A model generated the notes under the pieces. It did no database searches. It saw only the letters and a list, made by a program, of their open reading frames with translations, and was not told where the DNA came from. From assembly GCF_005222485.1 (NCBI RefSeq), contig NZ_CP029078.1:1054001-1118000 (forward strand): 64,000 bases of DNA, read 5' to 3'. The translations under genes were made by a program, and so were the position numbers. How positions within the stretch are numbered: position 1 is the first letter of the stretch; every line of letters begins with the position of its first letter. Positions 1 to 25,449 of the stretch are shown one piece after another. The stretch comes from Streptomyces griseoviridis. Lineage in GTDB: Bacteria; Actinomycetota; Actinomycetes; Streptomycetales; Streptomycetaceae.

Positions 1-1098
1 CAGGCCGAAGGCGGAGACGAACTCGCCCGCCACCAGCATGGCGACGACCAGCCACTGCGGGCCGTGCGCGAGCGGGGTCATGACCAGCGCGGCGGGGAAG
101 ACCAGACAGCCGACGAGGTACGTGGGGCCGAGCCCGACGCGCCGGGAGAACCGCGTGGTGACGGCGGAGCCGATCAGCGCGCCGACCGCGCCGACGCTCA
201 CCACCGCGCCGACCAGACCGGCCGAGAGGCCGAGGTCGCGGGCGGCGAAGAGGATGAGCAGCGTCGAGTAGACGGTGTAGAAGAAGTTCAGGGCGGTGCC
301 GGAGACGAACTTGGCGCGCAGCACGGCCGTGGCGACGAGGAAGCGCAGCGCCTCCCTGATGCCGTCCCGCGGCTTGCCCGCGTCCTCCTGCGTCGCCTCC
401 GCCTTCTCCTGCCCCTGCTCCCCCTCGTCCTTCCCGGTGGCCTCCCGGTCCGGGATGGCCCGCAGCAGCACGGTGGCGACGAGGAACGAGAAGACGTCGA
501 GGACCAGGGCGAAGGGCGCGGAGAGGATCTGCACGACGGCGCCGCCGACGCTGGGTCCGGCGACGAAGGAGAAGGAGTAGCTGGCCCTGCTCAGCGAGGT
601 GGCGCTCAGGTACTGCTCGCGCGGGACCAGGGAGGCGAAGAGGCCGGGCACGGCGACGCTGAACACCACCGCGAGGGTGCCCGTCACGAAGGAGACGGCG
701 TACAGGTGCGGCAGCGTCAGCGAGCCGGTGAAGTGGGCGAGGGGGACGGTGGCCACGGTCGCCGCGCTGGCGAGGTTGGCCGCGATCATCGTGGATCTGC
801 GCCGGCCGCGCCGGTCGACCCAGGCGCCCGCGTGCAGCGAGAACAGCAGCAGCGGCAGTTGTTGCAGGGTCACCAGCAGACCCATGTCGGCCGCGGAGGC
901 GTCGAGCGTCATCACCGCGATCAGCGGCAGGACGATGGACGTGACCTGGTCCCCCATGTAGGAGACGGTCTGCGCGGTCCAGAAATTACGGAAATCCCGC
1001 TGGCGCAGCACGGCGGGAATTCTGTCCGTCAGGCGGGGCGGCGCGACCACATTCAACGTCTGAATCCGTCCTGGGTTCCGTTGGCTTTCCTTCGACAT
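1..1098 (-). CDS. MFS exporter, EntS/MFS_3-like (3' end outside window)
   Basis: The N-terminal 366 residues of a major facilitator transporter are visible; the gene runs off the left edge. The ATG at 1098 opens MSKESQRNPGRIQTL, a short soluble tail followed by FRNFWTAQTVSYMGDQVTS, the usual entry into TM1 of MFS_3 exporters. Alternating hydrophobic segments are separated by the family loop DRRGRRR (after TM2), and a charged Glu/Lys-rich cytoplasmic linker around residues 205-230 divides the two six-helix halves. It is the last gene seen of the minus-strand NRPS operon, 108 bp after the PhzF-like gene. Exporting the operon's product and giving self-resistance is the simplest role (inference). 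The substrate cannot be read from sequence. Confidence 0.85.
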   Translation of the reverse strand, partial: MSKESQRNPGRIQTLNVVAPPRLTDRIPAVLRQRDFRNFWTAQTVSYMGDQVTSIVLPLIAVMTLDASAADMGLLVTLQQLPLLLFSLHAGAWVDRRGRRRSTMIAANLASAATVATVPLAHFTGSLTLPHLYAVSFVTGTLAVVFSVAVPGLFASLVPREQYLSATSLSRASYSFSFVAGPSVGGAVVQILSAPFALVLDVFSFLVATVLLRAIPDREATGKDEGEQGQEKAEATQEDAGKPRDGIREALRFLVATAVLRAKFVSGTALNFFYTVYSTLLILFAARDLGLSAGLVGAVVSVGAVGALIGSAVTTRFSRRVGLGPTYLVGCLVFPAALVMTPLAHGPQWLVVAMLVAGEFVSAFGL

Positions 1099-1206: not shown

Positions 1207-1995
1207 TCACGGCAGGTCGTCCAGGCGGCCCCGCACCACGGCGGGCCCCGCCACCAGGACCCGGTCACCGGCGAGGGTCACCGACAGGCGCCCGCCGCGC
1301 TCGGAGAGCTGGAGGGCGGACATCGTCTCCCTGCCCGTCCGCTCCGCCCAGTACGGCGCCAGTTTGCAGTGCGCGGAGACGCAGACCTGGTCCTCGTCGA
1401 CCCCGAGGGCGGGGAAGAAGGTGCGGGAGACGAAGTCCGCGCCGCCGCCCCTGGCGGTCACCACGTGCCCGCGGCAGTCGATCGCCGCGAGCGCCTCGAA
1501 GTCGGGCTTGAGGGAGGCGACGTCGTCCACCGACCCGACCTCGACGAGGATGTCGTCCTCGGCGCGCTCGCACGCCGTGACCTCCACCCCGAGCGCCTTC
1601 TCGAGGCCGGGCGGCGGGGTGATGGGCACGGTGCGCATCACCGGCAGGTCGATGGCGAACCCGCCGTCCACCCGGTGGGTGTACAGCTCGCCCGCGCCGG
1701 TCTCGAAGACCAGCGGGAGCGCGTCGTCGACCCCGCCCGCCTCGTGCAGGTAGCAGGCGCTCGCCACGGTGGCGTGACCGCAGATGTTGAGTTCCTTGCC
1801 GGGGGTGAACCAGCGCACCCGGTAGCGGTCCTCGGTCAGCCGGTGCAGGAAGGCGAGGGTGGGCAGCCCCGCCGCGCGGGCGGCGCCCTGCATCCGGTCG
1901 GCCGGTGGCAGGCCGTCGGGGCAGAGCACGACACCGGCCGGGTTGCCCCGGAACTCGGCGTCCGCGAAGGCGTCAACCAACCAGATCTCCGTCAC
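1207..1995 (-). CDS. PhzF-fold isomerase/epimerase-like protein with an atypical two-cysteine active site
   Basis: 262 residues spanning the whole PhzF / diaminopimelate-epimerase fold. Family landmarks are the N-terminal DAFADAEFRGNPAGVV, the ELNICGHATVASA segment (Cys72) and the C-terminal SAHCKLAPYW. Two catalytic positions differ from ordinary PhzF proteins. The conserved Glu (Glu45 of PhzF) is replaced in GLPTLAF, where Thr46 aligns, and the usual DPVTGSAH motif reads DQVCVSAH, placing Cys205 in the phosphate-binding-type loop. Cys72 and Cys205 thus fall about where DapF and proline racemase carry their two catalytic cysteines. The fold is established; racemase or epimerase chemistry is inferred. 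The gene overlaps the desaturase gene by 23 bp, so the two are probably translationally coupled. A PhzF-type isomerase acting on the operon's modified amino acid is the alternative. Confidence 0.8.
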   Translation of the reverse strand: MTEIWLVDAFADAEFRGNPAGVVLCPDGLPPADRMQGAARAAGLPTLAFLHRLTEDRYRVRWFTPGKELNICGHATVASACYLHEAGGVDDALPLVFETGAGELYTHRVDGGFAIDLPVMRTVPITPPPGLEKALGVEVTACERAEDDILVEVGSVDDVASLKPDFEALAAIDCRGHVVTARGGGADFVSRTFFPALGVDEDQVCVSAHCKLAPYWAERTGRETMSALQLSERGGRLSVTLAGDRVLVAGPAVVRGRLDDLP

Positions 1996-3094
1996 GGGGC
2001 ACCTCGCTCATGGTCCGGAACATGCGGTCCACCGCCTGGAACATGCCCCACACCTCGGTGTACGGGGGCCCGTGGTCGCCGCTGTCGATGTCGCGCTGGC
2101 GCGCGTAGGCCGCGGTGGTCCACGCGTCGGTGGTCGGATAGCGGTGGTGGTAGTCGTGGTTGGGCAGGTCGCCCACCACGACCAGGCACCTGCTGGGCAG
2201 GTGGTAGAAGACCGTGCCGAGGAGCCAGCCGGCCCAGGCCGCCGCGGCCCGCCCGGCGGGCAGGCCCCGCTCGGGCACGGGGGCGCCGCAGAACCGGGCC
2301 GAGGTGGCGGGCACCGTGTAGAAGCGGTTGTCCTGGTCGGGGTCGGCGGGGGTCAGCCAGGCGTGTTCGCCGAGCCGGTCGAGGAGCGCGCTGAGCTGGG
2401 AGAGGAAGATCACCGGCAGCACGAAGGCGAGCAGCAGCGTCGAGGTGCCGTGCGGCAGCCAGAACGGCAGCGAGAGCCAGAACCCGGCCCAGAGCGCGAA
2501 GCCCGCCCGCCGCCAGGTGCCGGTGGTCAGGTTGGAGCGCAGCCGCCCGCCGACGGTGACGGCGTAGAAGCGCGGCGAGAGGAACACCGCGAACGCCCTG
2601 CGCCACAGCCGGCCGCGGCTCATCGACGGCAGGAACCCGAAGTGGAAGAGGAACTGCACCGGCGGGTCCTGCTCGGTGGCGAAGATCGACCGCCGGTGGT
2701 GGTTGTCGAAGTGCTCCTCCTTGAACTCCTGGAAGGTGTTGTAGATGTTGAGGACCGTGACCAGTTCGCCGAAGAATCTGTCGAGCGAGCGGTTCCCGGA
2801 GAACTTGCGGTGCAGCGCCTGGTGCGCGATGACGAGGATCATCGTGCGGGCGCCCTGGAGGGTCAGGACCCATCCGGCCACCAGGGCCAGGCCCCACAGC
2901 GGGAACCTGGCCGACACGGCCGTCGCGGAGAGGGCGAGCCCGCCGAGGAACGTCACCAGCGTCACCGCGGTGTAGCTCGCCCAGGTGTGCCGGATGAGGG
3001 GTTCCTGGTGGGGCAGCGCCCGCCCGGTGGCCCAGGTCCAGAAGTGCTGGGTCCACCCGGGGAAGCGCAGGTAGGAGGCGCGGACGTCACTCAT
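1973..3094 (-). CDS. Membrane diiron fatty-acid-desaturase-family oxidase
   Basis: 373 residues with several membrane segments (roughly residues 40-60, 65-90 and 200-245). The three histidine boxes that bind the diiron site in the FA_desaturase family are present: HQALH (HxxxH), HFDNHH (HxxxHH) and HDYHH (HxxHH). The family desaturates or hydroxylates lipids, but members in NRPS clusters also act on tethered or free small acids. Placed between the HO-like oxidase (8 bp overlap) and the PhzF-like gene (23 bp overlap), it most likely modifies the amino-acid-derived intermediate of this operon (inference). The start is set by the ATG that overlaps the preceding stop. No electron-transfer partner gene is adjacent. 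Confidence 0.85.
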   Translation of the reverse strand: MSDVRASYLRFPGWTQHFWTWATGRALPHQEPLIRHTWASYTAVTLVTFLGGLALSATAVSARFPLWGLALVAGWVLTLQGARTMILVIAHQALHRKFSGNRSLDRFFGELVTVLNIYNTFQEFKEEHFDNHHRRSIFATEQDPPVQFLFHFGFLPSMSRGRLWRRAFAVFLSPRFYAVTVGGRLRSNLTTGTWRRAGFALWAGFWLSLPFWLPHGTSTLLLAFVLPVIFLSQLSALLDRLGEHAWLTPADPDQDNRFYTVPATSARFCGAPVPERGLPAGRAAAAWAGWLLGTVFYHLPSRCLVVVGDLPNHDYHHRYPTTDAWTTAAYARQRDIDSGDHGPPYTEVWGMFQAVDRMFRTMSEVPRDGDLVG

Positions 3095-3794
3095 CGCGGC
3101 GCCGGTCCGAGGGGGCGGCCACGCCGGTCTCCACGCTGAGCCGGTCGAAGAAGGCGGTCCAGCGGTCCCACATCTCCTCGGCCGCCTTCAGCACCGTCGT
3201 CTCGTCCTGCGGGGAGAACCCGTCGAGCAGGGCGTGGTTGGCCTCCTCCACGTGGTCGGGCTCCTGGGCGACGTGGATGTCGACCCACGCGTTGCGGGTG
3301 GTGCCGGACTCGCGGGTGACGGCCTCGCCGATGCTGGAGACCATCAGCAGGTCGGTCACCTCGGTCGCGTAGATGCCGCCGAGGGCGGCGAACCGCTCAC
3401 CGGAGAGCCGTTCGTAGCAGGCCACCAGGTCGGCGGTCTCCGGGAAGGGCGCGGACCCGGTGACCTTCTGCCGGTCGTAGCCCGCCTTCTCCATGCTCCG
3501 GGCGTAGATCACCTCGTGGGCGCCGCGCGCCGATCCGGCCCCGGCCTCCTGGCTGAGGATGCGGGTGATGGCGCTCTTGGACTCGATGTCGGGCAGCACC
3601 GCGATGCAGCGGGCCAGGAAGGTGGTGAAGTAGTGCAGCGGATGCCACCACTGGCCGAGGTAGGTCTCCACCTGGTCGTGGTCGAGGGCCCTGGAGTGGA
3701 CCTGCTTGAAGAAGTCGTGCCCGGCGAAGCGGGCGTGCACCTCGTTGCCCGCCAGCCGGCCGGCCAGGGAGGTGGCGGTGCTCTCGGTCGTCAT
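3087..3794 (-). CDS. Heme-oxygenase-like diiron oxidase (TenA/PqqC-fold)
   Basis: 235 residues, all alpha-helical, resembling the iron-containing redox enzymes of the heme-oxygenase fold (HDO family; SznF, UndA, BesC and PolF are characterised members). A plausible metal-ligand set can be read directly: Glu83 and His93 (E-x9-H, QEAGAGSARGAHE), Glu145 (YATEVTD), and His174-x3-Glu178-x2-His181 (HVAQEPDH). Family reactions include N-oxygenation, amino-acid fragmentation, desaturation and azetidine formation, so the exact chemistry is open. The ATG overlaps the stop of the proline-hydroxylase-like gene by 4 bp (ATGA), which fixes the start. It is probably one of four iron-dependent tailoring enzymes acting on the same amino acid. 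Confidence 0.82.
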   Translation of the reverse strand: MTTESTATSLAGRLAGNEVHARFAGHDFFKQVHSRALDHDQVETYLGQWWHPLHYFTTFLARCIAVLPDIESKSAITRILSQEAGAGSARGAHEVIYARSMEKAGYDRQKVTGSAPFPETADLVACYERLSGERFAALGGIYATEVTDLLMVSSIGEAVTRESGTTRNAWVDIHVAQEPDHVEEANHALLDGFSPQDETTVLKAAEEMWDRWTAFFDRLSVETGVAAPSDRRRDE

Positions 3795-4672
3795 GATGTT
3801 CCTCCGTCGGTGGTCTGCGCGGAACGTTCCATCAGGAAGAACCGCAGCTCCTCCTGGATCTTCGTGCGCACCGCCTGGTCGGGGCAGCGGCGGCCGATCT
3901 CCGTCAGGGTCCGCCAGACGAAGTCCTCACCGCCGTCCCTGCGGTAGTGCTTCTTGATGACCAGGCCGAGGACGTCGCGGTAGTTCTCCAGGTCCACGAC
4001 GTCGGCCAGCCGGTACAGGGCTTCGAGTTCGGCGTCGGTGAGCGAGGGCCGCTTGCTGATCCGGTCCTCGGGTATCCCGCCCGACAGCTCCAGCGGGAAC
4101 CTGACGACGTCGGCCGCGTCGGCGGCGTCGGTGAAGTCGAGGATCAGATGGGTGCGGCTGCGGGTGGTCAGGGCGGCGGCGCCGTGCACCTTCGACGCGT
4201 CGAAGAACCAGACGTCGCCGACCGCCATCCGGTACACCACGTTGTCCTCGGTGAAGAGGGCGCCCTCGTTGGTCTCCAGCGGGATGTGCATGCGGTGGGC
4301 GTTGCGCGCCTCCTGCGGGATGTCCTCAAGCTCCAGCAGGTCGCGGTGCGGGACGGTGACGCTGTTGGTCATCTCCGCGATGCGCGCGAAGTTGAGGTTC
4401 TCCAGGTGGAAGTTGCGCTCCACCACCTGCCGCAGGTACGGCAGTTGCTCGCCGAAGGCGGTGACGGACGACTTCCGCGCGTGGTCGTAGTTGGTGATCA
4501 GCCCGTCGCCGCCCTCACCCCCGGAGGCGAACAGCATCAGGCTCTTCCACAGCCCGCCGCAGAGGTAGTCGCTGTACGCCTCGGAGAAGCGGAAGCCGGC
4601 CGCGCGGGCGAGGTCCTCGGCGACCGCGGCGGGGTCGATGTCGACCCGCCCGGCCAGTTGGGTGTCGGCCAT
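3791..4672 (-). CDS. Fe(II)/2-oxoglutarate oxygenase of the L-proline cis-3-hydroxylase family
   Basis: 293 residues with the layout of Streptomyces L-proline 3-hydroxylase (Asp/Asn hydroxylase jelly roll plus the family's C-terminal helical domain). Shared landmarks include the N-terminal GRVDIDPAAVAEDLA and the YLCGGLWKS region. Metal ligands are seen as His109-Arg-Asp111 (VPHRDLLELE) and His163 (SKVHGA). Arg173 (RSRTHLILDF) is the expected 2-oxoglutarate-binding arginine. The start at ATG 4672 shares one base with the previous stop (TGATG); a longer in-frame start lies inside the preceding gene and is less likely. Family knowledge points to hydroxylation of free proline or a close analogue, which agrees with the proline-like pocket of the neighbouring adenylation domain. 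Hydroxylation position and substrate are inferred. Confidence 0.85.
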   Translation of the reverse strand: MADTQLAGRVDIDPAAVAEDLARAAGFRFSEAYSDYLCGGLWKSLMLFASGGEGGDGLITNYDHARKSSVTAFGEQLPYLRQVVERNFHLENLNFARIAEMTNSVTVPHRDLLELEDIPQEARNAHRMHIPLETNEGALFTEDNVVYRMAVGDVWFFDASKVHGAAALTTRSRTHLILDFTDAADAADVVRFPLELSGGIPEDRISKRPSLTDAELEALYRLADVVDLENYRDVLGLVIKKHYRRDGGEDFVWRTLTEIGRRCPDQAVRTKIQEELRFFLMERSAQTTDGGTS

Positions 4673-5559
4673 CAGGCGCTCCTCGGGCGGGTGATGAAGG
4701 GTTCGTCCCACGCGTTGGTGGTCCGCATGGTGTTGAGGCCGTCGTCGTCCTGCCCGGCCAGCAGCACGCAGCCGTGCCGGGCCAGGTCGAAGTGGTGGCC
4801 GAACTCGTGGAACCCGGTCATGCCGCCGTAGACCCGGACCGAGGGCGGGACGACCCGGACCGAGAAGCCCATCCGCTGCCTGCGGCTGGTGTTGGGGTGC
4901 GAGCCGTGGATGGTGCGGGCGGTGAAGAGCACCACCTCGCCCGGGGCCATCTCGTGGTGGACGACGTCCTCCTGGTCGGGGTCCCAGTCCTTGTCGAGCC
5001 GGAGTTCGCCGTAGTCGTAGCCGAAGAACGTGTTGTCCTTGCCGGTCCCGTTCCAGGAGATCGGCCGGGTCTCGTCGTAGCGCCAGCGGCGGTGGCTGCC
5101 CGGGATCATCTTCAGGCAGCCGTTCTCCTTGGTCGCCTCGGTGAAGGCCACCCAGGCGGTCAGCTCCATCGGGACGCCCTCGGTGCGCTCGCCCGGTTCG
5201 AGCATCCCCTTCTCGGCCTCACCGATCGCGTACGTCTCGACCTGGTGCCAGCCGGTACCGGAGTCGCCGGGGTTCTTCGGGAAGAACTCGGTGCGCCAGC
5301 ACAGCACATCGGGTCCGATGACGCTCTGCATGCGTTCCACGATGGCGGGTTCGCTGATCAGGGTGCGCAGCCCGGGGACGTCCAGGTGCCGGTCGTAGTT
5401 GACCGGGTTGTCGAAGACGGCCCGGCTCTTGTGCGCGGGGTCCAGGAGGTAGGCCCGCTGCTCCTTCCACCAGGCCGTCATGACGTCCGGGTCCCAGAGC
5501 TTGAAGGGCCCCATGAACCCTTTCTCGTCGAACTGGCGGCGCTCGGCCTCAAGATCCAT
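4672..5559 (-). CDS. SyrB2-like Fe(II)/2OG halogenase or oxygenase with HQV instead of HxD
   Basis: 295 residues of the PhyH / chlorinating-enzyme group. The stretch CWRTEFFPKNPGDSGTGWHQ is very like SyrB2-type aliphatic halogenases, which act on aminoacyl-S-PCP. The facial-triad motif reads His105-Gln-Val107, so the Asp found in hydroxylases is absent. In SyrB2 that position is Ala and the vacant site binds chloride. The distal ligand is His218 (RTIHGSH), followed by an Arg-rich strand (RRQRMGFSVRVV) for 2-oxoglutarate. Valine here is unusual: halogenation is plausible, a non-halogenating oxygenase remains possible, and Glu108 next door might substitute as ligand. The start ATG 5559 overlaps the NRPS stop by 11 bp. 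The pairing with an A-PCP protein mirrors SyrB1/SyrB2. Confidence 0.82.
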   Translation of the reverse strand: MDLEAERRQFDEKGFMGPFKLWDPDVMTAWWKEQRAYLLDPAHKSRAVFDNPVNYDRHLDVPGLRTLISEPAIVERMQSVIGPDVLCWRTEFFPKNPGDSGTGWHQVETYAIGEAEKGMLEPGERTEGVPMELTAWVAFTEATKENGCLKMIPGSHRRWRYDETRPISWNGTGKDNTFFGYDYGELRLDKDWDPDQEDVVHHEMAPGEVVLFTARTIHGSHPNTSRRQRMGFSVRVVPPSVRVYGGMTGFHEFGHHFDLARHGCVLLAGQDDDGLNTMRTTNAWDEPFITRPRSA

Positions 5560-8215
5560 CGCTGTCGTTCCCCTTCCCGATGTCGTCCAGAACCCCGTCG
5601 ACCGCCCCGGCGAGCACCGTGACGTGCGGGGAGGTGAGGATGCCGGTGTGGTCGCCCGGCACCTCGTGCACGCGCACGGCCCCGCCGACGACCTCGCGCA
5701 GCCCGGCCCGCAGCAGGGCGCGGGTCTCGGCACCGGTCGCGCCGGCCTGGAACAGGTCCACGTCGCCCGGGTACGGGCGGGCGGTGTGCGCGGCCAGGGC
5801 GCCCATGCTCTGCCGGGCCATCGCCAGACTGCGCCGCAGGTGCCCGGCCTTGACGCCGACGGCGGGCGCCCCGCCCATCAGCCCCACCCAGTCCCGGTCG
5901 GCGGCGAGTTCCGCGACGTCGAGCGACTCCTCGCCGTCCGCGGCCCGCCGGTCGACCTCGTCCAGGACCTGCCCGAGCAGCGCCCGGTAGGGCGTCTCGG
6001 CGGGCGCGACCCCGCTCAGCGGGTCGAGGACCGGGTTGGCGTCGATCAGCCCGAGGAAGGCCACCTCCTGCCCCGACTCCCGCAGCAGGGTGGCCACTTC
6101 GAGGGCGAGCACCCCGCCGAAGGACCAACCGGCCAGCAGATAGGGCCCGTCGGGCTGCACCGCCCGGATCTGCTCGTGGTGGGCGCGCGCCATGTCCGCG
6201 AGGGAGGGTTCGCGGCCCGCCTCGGCCGGACCCGCCGCCCAGCGCACCCCGAGCACCCGCACCGGCGACTCCATGCGCCGCGCCAGCTCCCGGTAGGTGA
6301 GCAGTTCACCGCCGAGCGGATGGAAGAGGTAGAGCACGTTCCCGGCCGATCCGGGTCTGAGCGTGATGAGTTCGGACGGCGGCCGGTCCGCGGGCGGGGC
6401 CGCGGGACCGGCGGCGAGGAACGCGGCCAGCTCGTCGACGGTGGTGTTGCGCAGGATCACCGAGAGTTCGACCTCACGGCCCGCGAGCCGGCTCAGCTCG
6501 GTGACCACCCAGGCCGCGAGCAGCGAGTCACCGCCGACGTCGAAGAAGTCCTCGTCGCGCTCGAACTCGTCGTGTCCGAGCACCCGTTGCCAGACGGCAC
6601 TCACCTCGGCGGCGAGCGTCTCGGCGTCCCCCGCGGTCCGCTTCCGGTCGCCCGGCTCGGGCAGCGGCACCTCGGCGAGCCTCCTGCGGTCGGCCTTCCC
6701 GGTGGAGCTGAGCGGCAGGGCGTCGATGAAGGCGAACCTGGCCGGCACCATGTAGGCGGGCAGCGACGCGCGCAGCGCCGCGGAGAGCACCGAGACCGAC
6801 GGCGGCGCCCCCTCCTCCGCCACCACGTAGGCGACCAGCGCCCGCACCCCGTCGGCCAGGGTGCGCACCCCGACCGCCGCCTCCCGCACCCCGGGGCAGC
6901 GGGACAGCGCCAGCTCCACCTCGGCGGGTTCGACACGGTAGCCGCGGACCTTGAGCTGGTCGTCGGTGCGGCCCAGGAAGTGCAGCAGCCCGTCGGCGTC
7001 CCGCCGGGCGAGGTCCCCGGTGCGGTACATCCGGGCGCCCGGCTCGTCGGCGAACGGGTCGGGGAGGAAGCGGTCGGCGGTCGGGGCGGGCGCGCCCAGA
7101 TAGCCGCGGGCCAGTGCCGCGCCCCTGACGTGGATCTCGCCGGGCTCCCCGGCCGCGACCGGGGTGAGGCCGGGGCCGAGCAGCAGGACGTCGGCTCCGT
7201 CGACGCTCCGCCCGATCGGCGGGGTGCGCGGCCAGCCGCCCCGGTCGTCGCCCAGGGTCAGGCTGCTGACCAGGTGGGTCTCGGTCGGGCCGTAGTGGTT
7301 GTCGAGACGGCAGCCGGGCAGCGCGCCGAAGAACTCGGCGACCGCGTCGGTGATCACCAGTTGCTCCCCGGCGGTCACCACGTGCCGCAGCGAGCGGGGG
7401 AACCGGCCGGTGCGCCGCGCGGCCAGGGCCAGTTGGCCCAGCGCCACGTACGGCAGGAAGACCCGCTCGACGCCCTCCTTCTCCAGGACGGCGAGCAGCT
7501 GCTCGGGGTCGCGCCTGGCCTCCTCGGAGACCAGGCAGAGGCGTCCGCCGGTCGCGAGGGTGCCCAGGATCTCCTGGAAGGTGACGTCGAAGCCGGGCGA
7601 GGTGAAGCTCACCGTCGTCAGGCCGCCAGGGCCGTCCGCCGCCTGCCAGCGGATCAGCCGGCTCAGCCCGCGGTGCGTCATCGCCACGCCCTTGGGGCGG
7701 CCGGTGGAGCCCGAAGTGCTCATCACGTAGGCCAGGTTGTCCGGGTGCGGGGCGACCGGCCCCGCGCCGTCGGCGGTCGCCGGTGCGGCGTCGCCGGGGT
7801 GGGCGACCCGGCCGACCAGGTCGCTCACCCGCCGGGGCGTCTCCCGGTCGGTCAGCAGCACCCGGGCACCCAGGTCCGTGACGATCGCGGCGACCCGCTC
7901 GTCCGGGCAGGTGTCGTCGATCGGCGCGTAGACGCCGCCCGCCGCCAGGACCGCCAGCATCGTGACGACCAGGTCGGGCGAGCGCTCCAGCCGGACGGCC
8001 ACCGGGACCTCGGGGCCCACGCCCCACTCCCGCAGCGCCCCGGCCAGGCGCTCCCAGCGTTCGAGGAGTTCCCGGTAGGTCACCTGGGCACCGGCGCCGT
8101 CGGTCAGGGCGACCGCGTCCGGCCGGGCGAGCGCCCGCTCCCGCACCTGTCGGTGCACGAGCGCGCCGGGTTCCCACCCGGGGCTTGGCATGTGCGAAGA
8201 ACGTGTCTGTCCCAT
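5549..8215 (-). CDS. Free-standing NRPS A-PCP-TE, proline-like specificity
   Basis: 888 residues: an adenylation domain (about 20-515; P-loop STSGSTGRPKG near 165, YGPTE at 308-312, TGDLARRD near 400, lysine in TGKADRR), a PCP (FDVGGDSLLA near 560, Ser for phosphopantetheine) and a type I thioesterase (about 620-880, nucleophile in AGWSFGG near 698). There is no condensation domain. Aligning to GrsA by eye gives pocket residues D210 V211 Q214 F253 V280 A282 H307 L315 V316 plus the TGK lysine. The classical proline code is DVQLIAHVVK, so proline is the predicted substrate. It would load the amino acid for on-carrier oxidation or halogenation, and the TE would release it. A GGAG lies about 9 bp before ATG 8215. 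MbtH is 64 bp upstream. Confidence 0.9.
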   Translation of the reverse strand: MGQTRSSHMPSPGWEPGALVHRQVRERALARPDAVALTDGAGAQVTYRELLERWERLAGALREWGVGPEVPVAVRLERSPDLVVTMLAVLAAGGVYAPIDDTCPDERVAAIVTDLGARVLLTDRETPRRVSDLVGRVAHPGDAAPATADGAGPVAPHPDNLAYVMSTSGSTGRPKGVAMTHRGLSRLIRWQAADGPGGLTTVSFTSPGFDVTFQEILGTLATGGRLCLVSEEARRDPEQLLAVLEKEGVERVFLPYVALGQLALAARRTGRFPRSLRHVVTAGEQLVITDAVAEFFGALPGCRLDNHYGPTETHLVSSLTLGDDRGGWPRTPPIGRSVDGADVLLLGPGLTPVAAGEPGEIHVRGAALARGYLGAPAPTADRFLPDPFADEPGARMYRTGDLARRDADGLLHFLGRTDDQLKVRGYRVEPAEVELALSRCPGVREAAVGVRTLADGVRALVAYVVAEEGAPPSVSVLSAALRASLPAYMVPARFAFIDALPLSSTGKADRRRLAEVPLPEPGDRKRTAGDAETLAAEVSAVWQRVLGHDEFERDEDFFDVGGDSLLAAWVVTELSRLAGREVELSVILRNTTVDELAAFLAAGPAAPPADRPPSELITLRPGSAGNVLYLFHPLGGELLTYRELARRMESPVRVLGVRWAAGPAEAGREPSLADMARAHHEQIRAVQPDGPYLLAGWSFGGVLALEVATLLRESGQEVAFLGLIDANPVLDPLSGVAPAETPYRALLGQVLDEVDRRAADGEESLDVAELAADRDWVGLMGGAPAVGVKAGHLRRSLAMARQSMGALAAHTARPYPGDVDLFQAGATGAETRALLRAGLREVVGGAVRVHEVPGDHTGILTSPHVTVLAGAVDGVLDDIGKGNDSDGS

Positions 8216-8279
8216 ACGGAGAACTCCGACCGCTGTCGTCGATTCGATGCCGGAAAAGGCGACCGAGAGAGGAAGGGAA

Positions 8280-8513
8280 TCAAGAATTCTTGTTCTGGGC
8301 GGCGGCCATGGCGGCCCGCAGGCTCGCCGGACGCATGTCGGTCCACAACTCCTCGATACGGCCGAGGCAGTTCTCCTTGATGTCGGGACCTTCCACCGTC
8401 TCCCACCCCGAGGGCACCGGCTTGTCGCTGCGCCAGATCGAATACTGCTCCTCGTGGTTGCGGACGACGAAATAGAGGTCGCCCTGCCTCTCGCGGGACA
8501 CGTCCTCGCTCAC
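8280..8513 (-). CDS. MbtH-like NRPS chaperone
   Basis: 77 residues with the MbtH signature: NHEEQYSIW, P-x-GW (PSGWETV), CLGRIEELWTDMRP and SLR. MbtH proteins bind adenylation domains and stabilise or activate them, so the partner is the A-PCP-TE gene immediately downstream. The start is GTG at 8513 with a strong GGAGG a few bases upstream (CTGGAGGAACC). As first gene of the operon, its upstream region (8514-8904) should hold the operon promoter, and it contains the StrR-type palindrome. Confidence 0.93.
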   Translation of the reverse strand: MSEDVSRERQGDLYFVVRNHEEQYSIWRSDKPVPSGWETVEGPDIKENCLGRIEELWTDMRPASLRAAMAAAQNKNS

Positions 8514-9549: not shown

Positions 9550-10050
9550 GAATTCGGACCGGGCGCGGACGGCCTCCGCCGGAAGGCGGGAGCGACGGAC
9601 GACGGCCCCCGGCGGCGCACGGCACCCGTCCGCCGGGACCCGCGACACGCGCCCCCCGCACCCGTGTTCAACCCCGGACCTGAACACTCCGCCGGCCCTG
9701 AATCACCGTCCGATGGCACCGCCAACTAACGCTACACACAACCGTGTTGGCGCACCCGGTGACCGTTCTTCAGGTTCTTGAGTCAACTCGACTTAAAAAA
9801 GGGGCTATTGGGGACACCGTTGCAGCCCTCAGAGACCCTTGTTAGTCTCAAGCCGCTTCGACCGCCCGCCCCCCCACCACCTGACAAGGGTGTTCGTACC
9901 GCCCCCGGCTCCGGCCGGCGCCTCTCGTGCCACCGACTCGGTGCCGCACGATGTTGTCATTTCCGGAGTTTGCTCTTTCTGATCAGTGCGTCCCCTGTGG
10001 TTGCCCGTATCGCTTACCCCGCCGATACACGACTGACGGAAGGACCGTAT
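9550..10050. other. Long leader region upstream of the StrR-like regulator
   Basis: 501 bp with no convincing gene. It holds an inverted repeat, GTGTTCA-N10-TGAACAC (9664-9687), whose half-site resembles the StrR-type arm GTTCA but with shorter spacing, and an A-rich stretch (about 9788-9800, ACTTAAAAAAGG) typical of a promoter or leader. The reading frame of the regulator stays open back to a TTG at 9778. The stretch before 10051 lacks a good ribosome site and family similarity, so it was left non-coding. Confidence 0.5.
9664..9687. promoter_or_regulatory. Inverted repeat, candidate autoregulatory site
   Basis: GTGTTCA (9664-9670), 10 bp, TGAACAC (9681-9687). The arms are perfect. It sits in the leader of the StrR-like gene. 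Its GTTCA core is shared with the operator at 8711-8739, but the spacing differs, so recognition by the same protein is uncertain. Confidence 0.35.
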
Positions 10051-11115
10051 ATGTTCCCTGCGCACATAGCGTCCCTTCAGTGCATTCCCACTCCCGAAGA
10101 ATGCATGGTGGAAAGACCGGAGTCACACAGTTCGGCACCGCCGGAAACGAGAGAACCGGATCAGGGCACGATCGAAACAATCGCAACGGACGCTCTGCTG
10201 CCCGCCGACTCCCCCAGGACCGCAGGTCTCGACGAAGACCACGTCCGGGCTCTGGCCGATGTTCTCGAAAGCCTCCCGCCCCTCCTCGTGGAGCGGAATT
10301 CTCTCCGGGTCATCGACGGAATGCACCGGCTCCTCGCCGCCCGCCTCAAAGGGCACGAGCATGTGCGGGTCCAGTTCTACGACGGCGACGCCGACCAGGC
10401 GTTCCTGCACTCCGTCCGCATCAACGTGCGGCACGGGCTGCCGCTGACCAGAGCGGACCGGCGGGCCGCCGCCGAGCGCCTGTTCCGTACGCACCCGCAA
10501 CTGTCCGACCGGGCCATCGCGGCGATCGCGGGGCTGGCAACCAAGACCGTGGCACGGCTGCGTCTCACCCTGATCGGCTGCTCCTCCTCCGACGTCCGGG
10601 TCGGCCAGGACGGCAGACGCCGCCCGGTGAACAACGCCGACGGCCGCCTGGCCGCGAGCCGGGTCATCGCCCTGCGTCCTGAGGCGTCCTTGCGGGAGAT
10701 CGCCCGTGAGGCGGGCATCTCCGTCGGCACCGCGCACGACGTCAAGGAGCGCATCAGACAGGGCAAGGACCCGCTGCCCGACGGCGTGCGCGAGAAGACC
10801 CTGGAGATCGCGCCGGCCCCCGCGGACGACACCCGGAGCCCGGCGGCACCCGCCGAGCCGCCCGAACGCACGGTCGCGCAGGACATGCAGGAGGTGCTCC
10901 AGCGGCTGCGCCAGGATCCGTCCCTGCGCTACACCGAATCCGGCAGGTCGCTGCTGCGCTGGCTCGGGACCAGCACCGTGATCCCGGCCGAACTCCCGGT
11001 ACCGCTCAAACAGGTGCCCGCCCACTGCGCGGTGAACGTGAGCCGGCTGGCCAGGTCCTGCGCGGCGGCCTGGCTCGAACTGGCCCTCCACCTGGAGAGC
11101 GGCACGTCCCGCTGA
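10051..11115 (+). CDS. StrR/NovG-family ParB-like pathway-specific regulator
   Basis: 354 residues, the usual length of StrR-type activators. The N-terminal half is a ParB/Srx-like domain (about residues 40-125; VIDGMHRLLAARLKGHEHV). A helix-turn-helix follows near 151-172 (LSDRAIAAIAGLATKTVARL), and a second helical repeat near 213-236 (SLREIAREAGISVGTAHDV). Members (StrR, NovG and relatives) activate antibiotic clusters through GTTCg-type palindromes. ATG 10051 has GGAAGGA with 6-bp spacing; the alternative ATG at 10105 has a weaker site. The nearest target is the MbtH-NRPS operon, whose upstream region has a matching palindrome. Control of the distant PKS cluster is possible, but no equivalent site was noticed there. 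Confidence 0.88.
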   Translation: MFPAHIASLQCIPTPEECMVERPESHSSAPPETREPDQGTIETIATDALLPADSPRTAGLDEDHVRALADVLESLPPLLVERNSLRVIDGMHRLLAARLKGHEHVRVQFYDGDADQAFLHSVRINVRHGLPLTRADRRAAAERLFRTHPQLSDRAIAAIAGLATKTVARLRLTLIGCSSSDVRVGQDGRRRPVNNADGRLAASRVIALRPEASLREIAREAGISVGTAHDVKERIRQGKDPLPDGVREKTLEIAPAPADDTRSPAAPAEPPERTVAQDMQEVLQRLRQDPSLRYTESGRSLLRWLGTSTVIPAELPVPLKQVPAHCAVNVSRLARSCAAAWLELALHLESGTSR

Positions 11116-11484
11116 ACCGTTGAGCCGCTGAACCGCCGGATCACCACGGCCATGGCGAACAGCCACGGCGCACCACGGCCCACGAACCGAGACCGGAACC
11201 GGAACCGGGAGCGGAACCGACGACCGGACCAGAGCGACCGAGACCCGGCTGCCGCCAGCCCGCAGCCCGCAGCCCGCAGCCCGCAGCCCGCAGCCCGCAG
11301 CCCGCAGCCCGCAGCCCGCAGCCCGCAAGGATCGCGTACCCCCACCCCCACCGCCCTTCCATCCAGGGAGCCACCTCGTGCGCAGCCGATCCGTCATCCC
11401 CGCCACCGCGACCCGCAGGGCGCGCGGGTGTCCTGGCCGTCCGGCGGACACCGCCCACCGGCCCACCGGACCCGGCGGACGCTC
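11116..11484. other. Intergenic region with heptamer microsatellite
   Basis: 369 bp between the regulator and the antiporter. It holds the 7-bp tandem array described separately and no clear terminator. The antiporter frame stays open through the region from 11152, but the encoded SPQPAAR repeats look non-native, and antiporter homology begins only after ATG 11485. Confidence 0.5.
11261..11327 (+). repeat. Heptanucleotide tandem repeat (CGCAGCC)n
   Basis: Nine perfect consecutive copies of CGCAGCC (11261-11323) plus a partial tenth (CGCA). The unit is not a multiple of three, so copy-number change would shift any frame read through it. It lies about 160-220 bp upstream of the antiporter start. 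Confidence 0.95.
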
Positions 11485-12813
11485 ATGAACGCTTCGCAGA
11501 CGGTGCAACTCCTCGTCGCCCTGGCCCTGATCCTCGGGGTGGCGCGCACGATGGGAGCGCTGGCCCGCAGGCTCGGCCAGCCCGCCGTCATCGGCGAGAT
11601 CCTGGCCGGTGTCATGCTGGGCCCCACGCTGCTCGGTGACGACCTCTCCATGGAACTCTTCCCGGCGGACGTCCGCTCGCTGCTCGGCGCGCTGGCCGCG
11701 GTGGGCGTCGCGCTCTTCATGTTCCTCGTCGGCTCGGAGCTCGACCTGGGCCTGCTGCGCGGCAGCGGGCGGGCCACGATCTCGACGTCGCTGTGCTCGA
11801 CGCTGCTGCCGCTCGGCCTGGGCGCCGCACTGGCCTGGCCGCTGATGGACGCGCACCACGAGGGCGACCCCACCGGCTTCGTGCTGTTCTTCGCGGTGGC
11901 CATGGCCGTGACGGCGTTCCCCGTGCTGGCCAGGATCATCGCCGACCGCGGACTCGCGTCGACCCGGCTCGGGACGACCTCGCTGGCGTGCGCGGCCATC
12001 GCGGACCTGCTGGCCTGGTCGCTGCTGGCCGTGGTCGTGGCCGTCGCCACCGGCGGGCGGCTGGAGTGGAGGCTCGCGCTGCTGATCCCCTACGCCGTCC
12101 TGATGGTCACCGTCGTACGGCCGCTGCTGCGCAGGGCGAGCACCTGGGACGCGCCGAAGGGCGGCGGCCCAGGCCGGAACTTCGTGGCGCTGGTGCTGGG
12201 CGGGCTGCTGCTGTCGGGGGCCTGCACGGAGTGGCTCGGCATGCACTACGTGTTCGGGGCGTTCCTGTTCGGCGCGGTGATGCCGCGCGGGCTGAACGGG
12301 AAGCTGCGCGACGGTGTGCTGGAGCGGATCGAGCCCCTGTGCGGGCTGCTGCTCCTGCCGGTGTACTTCGTCCTGTCGGGGCTGAAGGTCGACCTCTCCC
12401 GACTGAACGGTTCGGATCTCGGCGCACTCGCCGCGATCATGGCGGTGGCGGTCGGCGGCAAGTTCCTCGGCGCGTACGGCGGGGCCAGGTGGGGAGGGCT
12501 CGACCGGCGCGACGCGGCGGCCCTCGGCGCTCTGCTCAACACCCGCGGGCTGACCGAACTGGTGGTCCTGGGCGTGGGACTTGAGATAGGGGTCCTGGAC
12601 AACCGGCTCTACTCGCTGATGGTGGTGATGGCGGTGACCACCACCGCGCTCACCGGCCCGCTGCTCGGCGTCATCCTCCGCGACCGTTCCCCCGACGGCG
12701 CGGACGTCCCACGGCCCGCCGGCACGACCGATCCGCCGGACGCCGCGGAGGCGGCCCCTGACGACTCCTCGGCCTCGCCCGCGCCGAACGCCTCGCCGGC
12801 CAAGCCGTCCTGA
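11485..12813 (+). CDS. CPA2-family Na+(K+)/H+ antiporter
   Basis: 442 residues, around 12 transmembrane helices, in the Kef/NapA-type CPA2 fold. Typical segments are LGQPAVIGEILAGVMLGP near residue 30, LFMFLVGSELDL near 75, and the discontinuous-helix region VTAFPVLARIIADRG near 145. The C-terminal 45 residues are Pro/Ala/Ser-rich and probably disordered. Start ATG 11485 was chosen because homology begins there; the upstream ribosome site is weak. Likely role: monovalent cation/proton exchange for pH or salt homeostasis. Export of a cluster product cannot be excluded from position alone but is not suggested by the family. Confidence 0.85.
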   Translation: MNASQTVQLLVALALILGVARTMGALARRLGQPAVIGEILAGVMLGPTLLGDDLSMELFPADVRSLLGALAAVGVALFMFLVGSELDLGLLRGSGRATISTSLCSTLLPLGLGAALAWPLMDAHHEGDPTGFVLFFAVAMAVTAFPVLARIIADRGLASTRLGTTSLACAAIADLLAWSLLAVVVAVATGGRLEWRLALLIPYAVLMVTVVRPLLRRASTWDAPKGGGPGRNFVALVLGGLLLSGACTEWLGMHYVFGAFLFGAVMPRGLNGKLRDGVLERIEPLCGLLLLPVYFVLSGLKVDLSRLNGSDLGALAAIMAVAVGGKFLGAYGGARWGGLDRRDAAALGALLNTRGLTELVVLGVGLEIGVLDNRLYSLMVVMAVTTTALTGPLLGVILRDRSPDGADVPRPAGTTDPPDAAEAAPDDSSASPAPNASPAKPS

Positions 12814-18161: not shown

Positions 18162-18240
18162 GGCGGGACGCTAACACCGCCGGGCGGCAACGGACATGGC
18201 GTCGGGGCGACTTCGGCCCAGGGCACCCGCCGGAACCCGG

Positions 18241-18513
18241 TCAGCCGCGCTTGCCCTCTCGCCCCCGTCGGGACGTCGCCCAGGAGCGGAGCGAGGCGCC
18301 GGCCTCGCCGATGGCGACCAGAAGGGCGGCCGACGCGGCGCACGCCCAGAAGCCCGCGGGCTGGTCCACGATCAGGCCGAGCAGCCAGAGGGCCAGGGTG
18401 AGCAGGAGCCACCAGGCGGCGAGGGAGGCGACTTGCCGCCACAGGCGCGCACGGCCGCTCGGGGCGGCAGCGCTTCCTTGGGCCGGCTCCGGACGGGAGC
18501 GCGCGGGGGTCAC
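18241..18513 (-). CDS. Small two-helix membrane protein, unknown function
   Basis: 90 residues from GTG 18513. Two hydrophobic helices are visible (WWLLLTLALWLLGLIV, about residues 34-49, and FWACAASAALLVAIGEAGA, about 55-73), flanked by Arg-rich termini. No family was recognised. It lies upstream of, and divergent from, the RHS-type gene. It is not positioned like a classical immunity gene, which normally follows the toxin. Confidence 0.5.
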   Translation of the reverse strand: MTPARSRPEPAQGSAAAPSGRARLWRQVASLAAWWLLLTLALWLLGLIVDQPAGFWACAASAALLVAIGEAGASLRSWATSRRGREGKRG

Positions 18514-19125
18514 GACGGCGGTACCTCCAGAAGGGCGGGCCGGGGCGGGGCGACGGGCCGGTCTTCGCCACGTCCGCCTCAGCCTATCCGCCGTCCAGGC
18601 CGCTCCCGTTCAACTCGTTCGGCCCCTCGCCCGGTTGACGAGCCCGCCGCGCGGGCCGCGGACCCGGTGCTCGGGCCGTCTGGCGCGGACGGCCGCGGTC
18701 CGGAGCCGAGGCCGGCGGTGAGTATGCCCGCCTCCTCACCGGTGAGACGGCGGGCAGGTTCGGCGTTCGCGCAGGTCATCGTCGCGGCCATGGCCCGTTC
18801 GGTGACCGGCCGGTTGCGTGCCGATCCGGCCGACAGGTCGGCGGCGGGCCGCGCCGGCCGCGGCGGGGCCCGCTCCTCGGGGCCGGTCCCGCGTCGCGGA
18901 CGTGGTCTTGAAGATGGGTGCCGCCACCCATACCACGATCGCCACATTCCGCACGATCATGATCACTTCGGGTTACGGGGGTCCCGAGTGCGCGTCCGAC
19001 GGCGTCGGGCGGGTGGTGCTGACGTTGCCCCCTGCCCCGGCGCCGACCTATCCGATCCGGACAGGTCGGTGATCGCGCCCGTCACCACCGTGCCGGGCGC
19101 CGGACGAGCGACCGGAGTCCTGACG
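18514..19125. other. Upstream region of the RHS-type gene
   Basis: 612 bp without a supportable gene. The RHS reading frame is open upstream to 18196, but that stretch overlaps the small membrane protein gene on the other strand, has no signal peptide at its start, and reads as low-complexity Arg/Gly. The true start is placed at 19126. The section around 18935-18985 is less GC-rich (CGCACGATCATGATCACTTCGG) and may hold the promoter. Confidence 0.5.
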
Positions 19126-25100: not shown

Positions 25101-25449
25101 GCTGCGCACCACACGGTGGAGCTACGGCAGTTGGCACAACTACAACTACCACTGGTTCTGGGACGTCGTCAGCGGCGACAAGGGGCCGGTGCCGATCACC
25201 GCGTGGAAGCGGCAGTACCGCTACCGCAACCAGTACGTGTTCAAGTGCAAGGTGGTGGCCTGGTACGGCTACGGCCGGCAGAAGATCCTGGCCACGTACG
25301 AGACGCGCTACCAGTACTCCTACCGTGACCGCACCTCCTACCGGATCGCGTTCACCGGCATCAAGTGGACGCGGACGGGCGGCTGGAGCTGGACGAGGAC
25401 GTCCAGGACCTACGTCTCCAGTTCCAGCATCGTCTACACGAAGGGCTGA
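19126..25449 (+). CDS. Secreted RHS/YD-repeat protein with aromatic-rich C-terminal module
   Basis: 2107 residues from ATG 19126 (GGAG 8 bp upstream). A Sec signal peptide is clear: RHRRRP, then a hydrophobic core, and cleavage near GAVAAPRAE (about residue 45). Residues about 310-500 resemble the DNRLRE/carbohydrate-binding domain of actinobacterial RHS proteins, followed by fibronectin-like segments. YD repeats run from about 1080 to 1850 (YDSAGRLRETWD, YDAAGRARNVTV, YDKAGRLTRAEDD). The RHS core ends with MGVRLYNPTTGRFLSADPI and DPVNSDDVTG, near residue 1965. The last ~140 residues form a distinct Trp/Tyr/Arg-rich tip (many W-x-Y motifs) with no recognised family. RHS shells usually encase a C-terminal toxin; activity of this tip is unproven, and no immunity gene follows on the same strand. 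Confidence 0.88.
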   Translation: MRQPEPPEGRSARHRRRPGWVAGSLCLALAASLLEGVFTGAVAAPRAEPPEAPAAAAASEAADIPSARVAARLSGKRVEALAERTETSTTWANADGTLTTELSAGPVRFKDDDTDTWRTVDLDLVRTEDGTVRPKAHPGGLRLAGKTGTVARSLRATRSADATDLVTLGDGDQRVTLQWKGGLPKPALDGTRATYAEAVPGADVVVEATRTGFEQFVEIKQRPTGDAYTYTLPLRAAGLKAEQLKDGSVRFTDGGKKTRAVMPAPVMWDASVDKRSGEHTRKAKVGMEVVQKGSSIDLVITPDSAFLDDPDTVYPVTVDPSASALSNVFDTYVQQGETVDWSNDTELDFGNPGTTNANGTPRTARSFVTWNTSPIQDALVSSAKLSLWNFHSGNTDCKVQPWEVWSAGAASTSSRWTAQPAWTALKATSTETRGNASCAATQPKGWINADVTGLVQEWASAKATRGHLGLRATSETVVAQWKRVNSANAASNPPKLVVNYNYRPRTGTKQEAGPPYFSYGGAWAVNTLRPTLRDTFVDADGDQVNGTFQIYDSATDTQVGGVLVSPYVPSGQTAEVTVSAGVLANGKTYRFRTSPYDGTHYNNGWSAWKTFTVDTTAPSAPSAITSTHYPTGSWVKGAGQAGTFTVTPPSGTDHNWLEWSLDGVTWTKVATGGASTPKALSIAPPKDGTHTLQVRAVDKADNKSEAAEYVFHAGPGGFVQPADGERTARRLPLVAEADAGRYDKVSFSWRRSEADAWTAIPAAHVTSGGTPLSGWPVPLTGGRNVALVWNTTQTVDPDGSIQIKADFTGPNSASGSTQPLTAVVDRDANGAAAAEAGPGSLNLLTGDYTLSGTDVSLFDTSVTRAASSRTPQAGAAQQGQAAIFGKEWTSGTAAQAVESDYTQLVKTSASSLDVVSTDGMTVAFTADAARTGWVAEPGSENLTLKGAFASGDFTLADTEGAVTTFRRVNASADAWVVVRSLIDGEAHSTTEVVSEAVTVDGKVLARPKHVIVASSAVTVGACEASPATRGCKVLEFVYATSTTATSSALGDVKDQVAEIRAWATSPGATASTATAVAKYAYDSAGRLRETWDPRISPALKTTYGYDSAGRVTGMTPPGQLPWTFVHGKAGAAAVAGDGMLLKVSRPTLSAGSADQPDGSAAVTSIVYGVPLTGTRAPAAFGASDVRAWGQFDAPSDATAVLPSGSAPASHDGADLTATTYGRAMVHYLNASGREVNTLDPAKNVTTTEYDAAGNAVRELSAANRALALGATNADQARLNDLGIAVLPAAERAELLSNRGVYNADGSRELETLGPLHRVVLEADLKEGSTTVAAAGDQLAVRHRTVNEYDGGRPTDGTATVSDKVTQSTEGGQPRNWPALTADARTVRTGYDWVLGKPTSTVQDPGGLAITEKAGYDGDGRQTSRSLPGSTGSDAGTVLTDYYAGTGTGVCGGRPEWAGEVCRTRPAAAVTGGGSNPSELVTTVAEYDRWGETAKLTETAGGATRVKSTTYDAAGRARNVTVTGGLGTAVPAVTTTYDAGSGKVATITSTDGGTITKAYDRLGRLISYTDADGATTTSSYDAQDRPVVVGDTVPSTTTYAYDTAVDPRDLPTSLTDSVAGTLSVRYDADGQVRSQQLPGGYTLAQSTNPAGMPTQRVYTRDSDGTVVFSETLVPTVHGQRSLYTGSLGQTSTQSYRYDKAGRLTRAEDDTVDAVCVTRSYGFDKNSNRTALATSAAQPGLACTTGGATTVNHTYDSADRLVDPGYVYDAFGRTTSAPGTTLAYFADDLVRQQVSGGQRQTWTLDSQLRTRGWTVESNASGTWTRTASKVNHYGSDADSPRWIVEDTATGSMTRHVDGFDGQLAATTAKSGNTVLHLVNLHGDVVVQLPLDASQAPTVQRTDEYGNVSGASGVRYGWHGGMHRSTETLTGLTLMGVRLYNPTTGRFLSADPIPGGSCNAYDYACADPVNSDDVTGCATCRVPKHAWTGRSFTTVLRTTRWSYGSWHNYNYHWFWDVVSGDKGPVPITAWKRQYRYRNQYVFKCKVVAWYGYGRQKILATYETRYQYSYRDRTSYRIAFTGIKWTRTGGWSWTRTSRTYVSSSSIVYTKG

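Follow-up and report, generated by a model that had tools for sequence, protein, structure and literature searches.

A proline-type, free-standing A-PCP-TE protein heads an operon that looks like a mosaic of two peptide cluster families in Streptomyces griseoviridis

The SyrB1/SyrB2 and CytC1/CytC3 pairs are established examples of the tailoring of carrier-bound amino acids by iron/2-oxoglutarate (Fe/2OG) halogenases. An operon with a related layout is found in Streptomyces griseoviridis, within a stretch of 64,000 nucleotides (the window; G000:C1:1054001-1118000 of the 8.96-Mb, single-contig genome G000). Read along the minus strand, it encodes an MbtH-like protein; a free-standing nonribosomal peptide synthetase (NRPS) composed of adenylation (A), peptidyl carrier protein (PCP), and thioesterase (TE) domains, here called NRPS5; a SyrB2-like Fe/2OG enzyme (the HQV enzyme); an Fe/2OG enzyme of the cis-proline-hydroxylase family (P4H); a heme oxygenase-like (HO-like) diiron oxidase (HDO); a membrane desaturase-family enzyme (FADS); and a PhzF-family protein. 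As in the SyrB and CytC pairs, an aminoacyl-PCP protein adjoins a SyrB2-family enzyme. Unlike them, this operon has a proline-type pocket, a fused TE, HQV instead of HQA at the halide site, and additional FADS, P4H, and HDO genes. It is also not self-contained: the gene content is that described in a first-pass annotation of this DNA, but the operon is one end of an NRPS cluster of ~40 kb that runs out of the window on the left. Comparison with related loci suggests that the operon and its cluster look as if two cluster families had recombined, and not like a single proline pathway.

Two further systems invite comparison. The kutzneride genes (KtzI/KtzT and KthP) likewise belong to an NRPS cluster that combines an ornithine N-hydroxylase, an FMN_bind_2 domain, and an enzyme of the SyrB2 family. 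The present locus differs in that the first two are fused in a single protein (the fusion), the SyrB2-family member has the HQV motif, and the published piperazate code is lacking. The polyoxypeptin ply cluster (PlyP, piperazate) shares a gene of the proline hydroxylase family, as well as free-standing NRPS domains to which the formation of unusual residues is attributed; the portion of that report available names no HDO, FADS, or SyrB2-like gene there (PMC3943440), and the A-PCP-TE of the present locus is fused. The literature found on the pieces of the operon, in which most subscription journals are not covered, does not name this gene set, and no search was aimed at the set as a whole.

The evidence for a mixed origin comes from the distribution of relatives. 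In the loci recovered, all seven genes occur together only in three closely related strains, namely G000, its congener Streptomyces clavifer JCM 5059 (G245, locus L092), and strain SolWspMP-5a-2 (L091); none was found among these loci outside such close relatives. In other genomes the genes mainly fall into two sets. One set comprises the fusion, a proline-type A domain, a TE, FADS, the HQV enzyme, P4H, and NRPS2- and NRPS3-type A domains, and is common to four remote clusters from Streptomyces and Micromonosporaceae (G204, G392, G395, and G397). The other set comprises HDO and two genes from the part of the cluster left of the window, the cytochrome gene P450a and NRPS4, and is common to three Streptomyces clusters of another type (G278, G157, and G522).

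HDO was detected in four of 392 genomes of the genus (E <= 1e-10) and two of 394 genomes of the class (E <= 1e-15), with G000 counted in both, and a scan of viral contigs gave no relative. Outside G000 and G245, these two scans give HDO in G278, G157, and G522. In all three, HDO is followed by a P450 that is 67-68% identical to P450a and then by an NRPS that is 42-43% identical to NRPS4 (identities for HDO and P450a are 67-73%). P4H is absent from these genomes at E <= 1e-5. An amino-group-carrier-like gene, read by eye, was seen only in the HDO cluster of G278.

The reverse pattern holds for P4H. A scan of genome contigs gave eight loci, of which two represent the whole operon (L091, 97%; L092, 89%) and six are remote (48-49%): L093 (G392, Dactylosporangium fulvum), L094 (G393, a metagenome-assembled genome), L095 (G394, Phytohabitans suffuscus), L096 (G395, Streptomyces sp. 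PH10-H1), L097 (G396, Micromonospora chokoriensis), and L098 (G397, Actinoplanes sp.). An NRPS2-like A domain lies within 10 kb of P4H at all six remote loci, and a SyrB2-like gene does so at four; the copy in P. suffuscus (L095:3033-3901) is split over two frames, through either a real break or a sequencing error. HDO is absent at E <= 1e-5 from all seven genomes with P4H relatives, which are G204 and the six remote ones.

The four clusters that define the first set share a specific layout. Besides P4H, HQV-enzyme, and fusion relatives (the fusion residues covered are 2-605 in G204 and 2-603 in G392, with partial matches over 2-552 in G395 and 2-512 in G397), they contain the A domains nearest to that of NRPS5, at 46-50% identity, with the codes DIQFLAQLAK or DIQFLAQLGK. 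These DIQF-type domains sit in a protein that aligns with the condensation (C)-A-PCP unit of NRPS1. In four of four cases this NRPS is followed by a TE gene; next comes FADS, which starts ~3.1-3.2 kb past the NRPS. A 26-row FADS profile finds two FADS genes in each of the four clusters: the one directly after the TE scores 69-78 bits, and a second, next to the fusion, scores lower, at 28-33 bits. The remaining P4H genomes, G393, G394, and G396, show no fusion match above 40% identity. Their A domains matched near P4H are at most 43% identical to that of NRPS5, among 28, 28, and 11 A-domain matches, respectively, for which codes were read in part only. A proline-type domain (DVQFAAEIAK, 48%) does occur ~66 kb from P4H in G396, and a DIQFNAHTVK domain (L103) lies >500 kb from P4H in G394. 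Within the genus, FADS relatives are present in 26 of 392 genomes, and only in G000 and G245 do HDO, P4H, and PhzF stand beside FADS (4-kb loci).

The first-pass annotation had suggested that the iron enzymes heavily oxidize proline, and had named homologous operons lacking the NRPS as a ground for rejecting this. That all four oxidize one proline is not supported. HDO and P4H relatives reside in separate sets of genomes, and among the loci found the seven genes stay together only in close relatives. Single enzymes do recur apart from the NRPS. HDO relatives occur without NRPS5 in G278, G157, and G522, and NRPS5 is likewise missing within 10 kb of the P4H relatives in L094 and L097 and of the SyrB2-like relatives in L076, L077, and L079. 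Because the cluster looks stitched from two kinds of cluster, a single proline is probably not the substrate of all four iron enzymes.

Other parts of the first-pass annotation stood up well. Pfam domains and coordinates confirm that MbtH and a free-standing A-PCP-TE head an overlapping operon: the six genes from NRPS5 through PhzF overlap successively by 11, 1, 4, 8, and 23 bases, and 64 bases separate MbtH from NRPS5. No C domain is recognized by Pfam in NRPS5, whose orthologs are 82% (G245) and 96% (L091) identical. The ten pocket residues, whose positions were assigned by motif on a GrsA numbering that we assume, were reread as DVQFVAHLVK and are identical in the G245 ortholog. With Val236 and Gln239, this pocket is proline-like as had been claimed. 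A published survey has 71 proline A domains, reports n = 59 for the Val236/Gln239 combination, and also assigns two Gln239 codes to azetidine carboxylate (PMC12283262). For lipopeptide synthetases, DVQYVAHVVK, DVQYIAHVVK, DVQFVAQVVK, and DVQFVSQVMK are tabulated as proline codes (PMC9113097), and DVQYIAHVTK is another (PMC2866473). The string DVQFVAHL itself was not found in the literature searched, with the coverage noted above.

Relatives of the A domain point the same way. When 66 A domains are placed in a tree, that of NRPS5 groups with seven others, all eight having Gln239, with good support (100/97). The NRPS4 domain occupies a neighboring part of the superclade that contains NRPS5 (100/98), beside DVEIAAYA-type and DYQYCGHLVK domains. 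In phmmer comparisons NRPS5 matches LgrA with 568 bits, a sum over two domains (269 + 299 bits), 8xjz_C with 404 bits summed over two stretches, and TycB, whose first module we take to load proline, with 349 bits over a single stretch. By its code, the NRPS5 A domain is of the proline type. L-Proline is our best guess for its substrate, since the pocket fits published proline codes and the relatives agree.

The SyrB2-like enzyme was correctly placed by family in the first-pass annotation (E-values of 2.1e-64 to CytC3 and 3.2e-64 to SyrB2), but the halogenase motif HXA/G that the likeness would imply is not retained. SyrB2 and CytC3 have WHQA at the halide site, and the window protein has WHQV in an ungapped alignment; HQV is also present in both orthologs (L028 and L091). 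The distal histidine and the arginine that presumably binds 2-oxoglutarate align with those of SyrB2 and CytC3. The NCBIfam model TIGR01762 ("chlorinating enzyme") scores the protein at 292.7 bits against a cut-off of 226.3. According to a preprint that describes a curated database of halogenases, halogenation is marked by HXG/A (PMC12871659), and this label should therefore not be taken at face value.

Within the genus there are 47 SyrB2-like places at E <= 1e-30; among the 30 whose loci were read (17 were left unread), nine carry HQV and 21 carry HQA. A tree of 34 rows, consisting of these 30 and four from the contig scan after L095 was dropped as short, contains 13 HQV and 21 HQA sequences. 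The HQA rows form one group (100/99), and every HQV row falls outside it. The HQV rows split into an HQVE group of ten, with support of just 81/59, and an HQVR group of three (100/100), and the tree program warns of long branches meeting near these groups. At all eight HQVE loci beyond the operon (L076-L079, L093, L095, L096, and L098), a KASIII-like gene, named by eye, follows within ~1 kb downstream. A small carrier-like gene lies between the two in L076, L078, L079, L095, and L096, and the gene caller gave none in L077, L093, and L098. This neighborhood fits a carrier-bound substrate for HQVE enzymes, though not specially a prolyl one. We consider doubtful, but worth stating, that HQV enzymes stand apart within the SyrB2 family as a group that neither retains the metal-binding carboxylate nor has a small halide-site residue in its place, and that would perform non-halogenating chemistry (desaturation, cyclization, or hydroxylation) on carrier-bound substrates. 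Here, the HQV enzyme would work with the membrane diiron enzyme on prolyl-S-PCP, and a piperazate-type peptide would thereby receive a new residue derived from proline.

Several other observations concern this family. L076, L077, and L079 share a conserved HQVE neighborhood without NRPS matches, in which acyl-ligase-, carrier-, amidohydrolase-, KASIII-, and antiporter-like genes were recognized by eye. The second HQV lineage (WHQVRDY) is represented by L040, L043, and L051, two of which have NRPS A-domain matches in the 1.5-kb flank. G000 itself carries a second SyrB2-family gene (C1:1259737-1260630; 47% identity), ~200 kb from the cluster.

P4H was described earlier as a proline-3-hydroxylase-family oxygenase. 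The family holds, and the protein scores slightly better against L-proline cis-4-hydroxylase (5.7e-37; 131 bits) than against 1e5r (3.9e-33; 118 bits), a PDB entry named "proline oxidase" that we take to be proline 3-hydroxylase. It resembles the cis-3 and cis-4 enzymes in family and in its HxD...H...R motif. H109, D111, H163, and R173 are invariant in a three-row alignment and presumably form the facial triad and bind 2-oxoglutarate.

The HO-like and membrane diiron oxidases reported in the first-pass annotation are both recognized by Pfam. In HDO, residues E83, H93, E145, H174, E178, and H181 are invariant in five of five rows, and from their spacing we assume that they are the likely metal ligands. 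The same set of three histidines and three carboxylates is described for BesC and other HDOs (PMC13108848); BesC differs in being only weakly similar to this HDO and in having different neighbors. FADS has nine histidines conserved across all 26 rows, no solved relative up to E 0.1, and a weak NCBIfam match to the arginine hydroxylase GntB (32 bits against a cut-off of 380). To our knowledge, it would be unusual for a membrane enzyme of the desaturase family to have a carrier-bound amino acid as its substrate. Finally, compared with 1s7j, the PhzF-family protein has threonine at the position of the SE glutamate and retains both cysteines (CGHAT and VCxSAH). On the roles that we assume for these residues, it may be an epimerase or racemase and not a PhzF-type isomerase.

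The remainder of the cluster provides the setting in which these proteins presumably function. From the operon leftward, it comprises the rest of a major facilitator superfamily (MFS) transporter gene, P450a, a PhyH enzyme, a zinc alcohol dehydrogenase, NRPS4, a second PhyH enzyme, P450b, NRPS3, NRPS2, a TE with a TubC docking domain (on the opposite strand), NRPS1, the fusion, an FkbH-type protein, a carrier protein, a glyoxalase-like protein, and a nitroreductase-family protein, whose gene lies ~40 kb from that for MbtH. NRPS4 has an N-terminal stretch without a Pfam match and then A, PCP, and C domains; NRPS3 is C-A-PCP; NRPS2 is C-A-PCP-TE; and NRPS1 has two C-A-PCP modules. Beyond NRPS5 there are thus five further NRPS modules. 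Their codes are DVWYIGGRVK (NRPS2), DVWHQSLEVK (NRPS3), DPQYAGLAAK (NRPS4), and, twice, DLF(N or P)NALTYK (NRPS1), whose fourth letter is unsure (DLFPNALTYK in a first alignment and DLFNNALTYK in a second) and which we assume to be alanine-type. G245 keeps the cluster order at ~75-94% identity, with the exception that its NRPS1 has one module in place of two; to judge from the sequences, this difference is a recent module duplication or loss. In G000, NRPS1 lies at C1 ~1028725-1035906 (L066:6725-13906, minus strand), and its two A domains are 93% identical. In its gene content, the cluster shares with piperazate-peptide clusters the ornithine N-hydroxylase and KtzT-type FMN_bind_2 domains, which lie left of the window. 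The fusion, for the two domains of which we take KtzI and KtzT as models, is likely to be its piperazate maker.

The explanation that we favor, tentatively and at close to an even chance, treats NRPS5 as a tailoring station that acts in trans. NRPS5 with MbtH would adenylate L-proline, or a cyclic imino acid close to it, and keep the residue on its own PCP, where FADS and/or the HQV enzyme would oxidize it. The type I TE, judging from its motif, would then free the modified amino acid, which the assembly line left of the window would take up and load again. NRPS4 may accept this product, because its A domain shares a supported superclade with that of NRPS5. The fusion would supply an ornithine-derived unit, most likely piperazate, to the same assembly line. 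A different residue or step is the probable target of HDO, together with P450a and NRPS4, whereas P4H probably acts on an amino acid handled by an NRPS2-type A domain. Domain content, pocket code, gene order, and the division of relatives between genomes are observed; the substrate, the reaction order, the release, and the reloading are inferred.

A number of observations weigh against this explanation. The overlap of six genes argues for a common task. As proof of one pathway, this overlap was set aside, since HDO and P4H part company elsewhere. The absence of HDO from the seven P4H genomes comes from a search without a positive control of its own, although the same query does find matches in the genus and class scans. 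A free-standing A-PCP lies 8-10 kb from HDO in each of G278, G157, and G522, MbtH precedes it in G278 and G157, and among the NRPSs of the present cluster its best match is NRPS5 (38-39%). HDO and a free-standing module may therefore belong together even though the codes differ: those of the HDO-linked proteins, DAFWVGGTTK or DAFWVGGTFK, are valine-type and fall in a different part of the A-domain tree from NRPS5, and DAFWLGGTFK is given as valine (PMC9113097). FADS-family genes also occur near HDO, at ~10 kb in G278 and ~34 kb in G157, although the 40 kb read of G522 contains none; FADS is thus not restricted to a single gene set. The proline-type domain of the remote clusters belongs to a C-A-PCP protein and is not free-standing, which leaves the free-standing form and its release step without a remote parallel. 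Nor are the four DIQF domains exclusive sisters of NRPS5, because L103 of G394, on a long branch, joins NRPS5 with 99/85 support. The HQV relatives adjoin a KASIII-like gene, often with a small carrier gene, and no proline-type A domain. None of the cluster's six A domains has a published piperazate code (the DVFSVxxYAK kind; PMC10888640, PMC3943440). More generally, co-occurrence tells which genes travel together and not which substrate they touch. This, the neighbors of the HQV relatives, and the want of a remote counterpart for the free-standing proline module, when HDO relatives do have a valine-type one, are the weakest points of the argument.

Other explanations must be set beside the trans-acting station. 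If one proline, whether free or bound to a carrier, were the successive substrate of all four iron enzymes, a heavily oxidized proline would result. The six overlapping genes, which S. clavifer and SolWspMP-5a-2 have in the same order, and the free-standing A-PCP near HDO relatives would suit such a sequence. It is nevertheless distinctly unlikely, given that HDO relatives stand in a row with P450a and NRPS4 relatives in genomes without P4H, that none of the seven genomes with P4H relatives has HDO, and that the A domains on the P4H stretches of G393, G394, and G396, with codes partly read, are no closer to NRPS5 than stated above. It is rather unlikely that the A domain instead loads piperazate or hydroxypiperazate from the fusion, for decoration by the HQV enzyme and P4H, in view of a pocket that is proline-type and unlike the published piperazate codes. 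This idea does draw on the presence of the fusion in the cluster and of its relatives, two matched partly, in all four remote clusters with DIQF-type, HQV, and P4H proteins. There is also precedent in KthP, which chlorinates thioesterified piperazate in kutzneride biosynthesis (PMC12615548), and in GetF, which hydroxylates pipecolate and is likened to P4H by description only; a title in the reference list of the same paper mentions a pipecolate clade among cis-selective proline hydroxylases (PMC9271919).

The HQV enzyme could also be an ordinary chlorinase, with valine small enough to admit chloride and chlorinated proline as the product. It passes the NCBIfam cut-off and keeps the distal histidine and the arginine whose roles we assume from SyrB2. 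The lack of the published halogenation mark, and the separation of all 13 HQV rows from the single group of HQA enzymes, make this unlikely. Lastly, the NRPS5 TE might hand the modified aminoacyl group to a partner carrier protein without hydrolysis. Two more TE-containing proteins in the cluster mean that release is also served elsewhere, but the domain is a type I TE of family PF00975 whose motif is intact, which makes such a transfer highly unlikely.

Table 1. Features of the operon and its surroundings (window positions unless a contig is named).
Feature	Position	Strand	Basis and remarks
MFS transporter	1..1098	-	Extends past left window edge; 465 aa in total; Pfam MFS_1 6.4e-45 (complete gene)
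PhzF-family protein	1207..1995	-	Pfam PhzC-PhzF 8.4e-48
FADS, membrane fatty-acid-desaturase-family diiron enzyme, His boxes kept	1973..3094	-	Pfam FA_desaturase 2.2e-9
HDO, HO-like diiron oxidase	3087..3794	-	Pfam Haem_oxygenas_2; best solved relative BesC, just 1.3e-5
P4H, cis-proline-hydroxylase-family Fe/2OG enzyme	3791..4672	-	Pfam Asp_Arg_Hydrox + Pro_3_hydrox_C; H109, D111, H163, R173
SyrB2/CytC3-family Fe/2OG enzyme, HQV replacing HXA/G	4672..5559	-	Pfam PhyH; NCBIfam TIGR01762
NRPS5, A-PCP-TE, 888 aa, pocket DVQFVAHLVK	5549..8215	-	Pfam AMP-binding, AMP-binding_C, PP-binding, Thioesterase
NRPS5 type I thioesterase domain, GWSFG, later D and H present	5615..6334	-	Pfam Thioesterase 2.1e-25 (PF00975); motif read directly
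NRPS5 PCP, GGDS	6416..6607	-	Pfam PP-binding; serine read from translation
NRPS5 adenylation domain, residues 25-507	6695..8143	-	Pfam AMP-binding + AMP-binding_C
MbtH-like protein, GTG start	8280..8513	-	Pfam PF03621 7.8e-17; 78% identity to G245 counterpart
Possible cluster regulator	9778..11115	+	Start uncertain; similar gene at equivalent place in G245 (by eye)
Sodium/proton antiporter	11152..12813	+	Start uncertain; Pfam Na_H_Exchanger 3.1e-49
Fusion, ornithine/lysine N-hydroxylase + FMN_bind_2	G000:C1 ~1026611-1028632 (L066:4611-6632)	-	Lys_Orn_oxgnase 3.3e-87; FMN_bind_2 5.6e-35

Upstream of MbtH, the regulator candidate has no Pfam match and a look that we take to be ParB/StrR-like. 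The antiporter gene is perhaps at the cluster edge, and the cluster in G204 likewise holds a Na_H_Exchanger antiporter. Between the regulator-like and antiporter genes, at ~11240-11340, there are short direct repeats, which appear as SPQPAAR units in translation. Farther along, ARAGORN calls a tRNA-Val (cac) of 99 bases at 21537-21635; this is probably a false call, and it lies within a long reading frame (18196-25449) that appears YD-repeat-like by eye.

The locus suggests that a new tailoring operon may arise by the joining of parts of two cluster families. It also carries a warning that the overlapping genes of one operon need not share a substrate. For the SyrB2 family, the HQV group could reveal whether enzymes of this type that lack the carboxylate ligand perform other chemistry.

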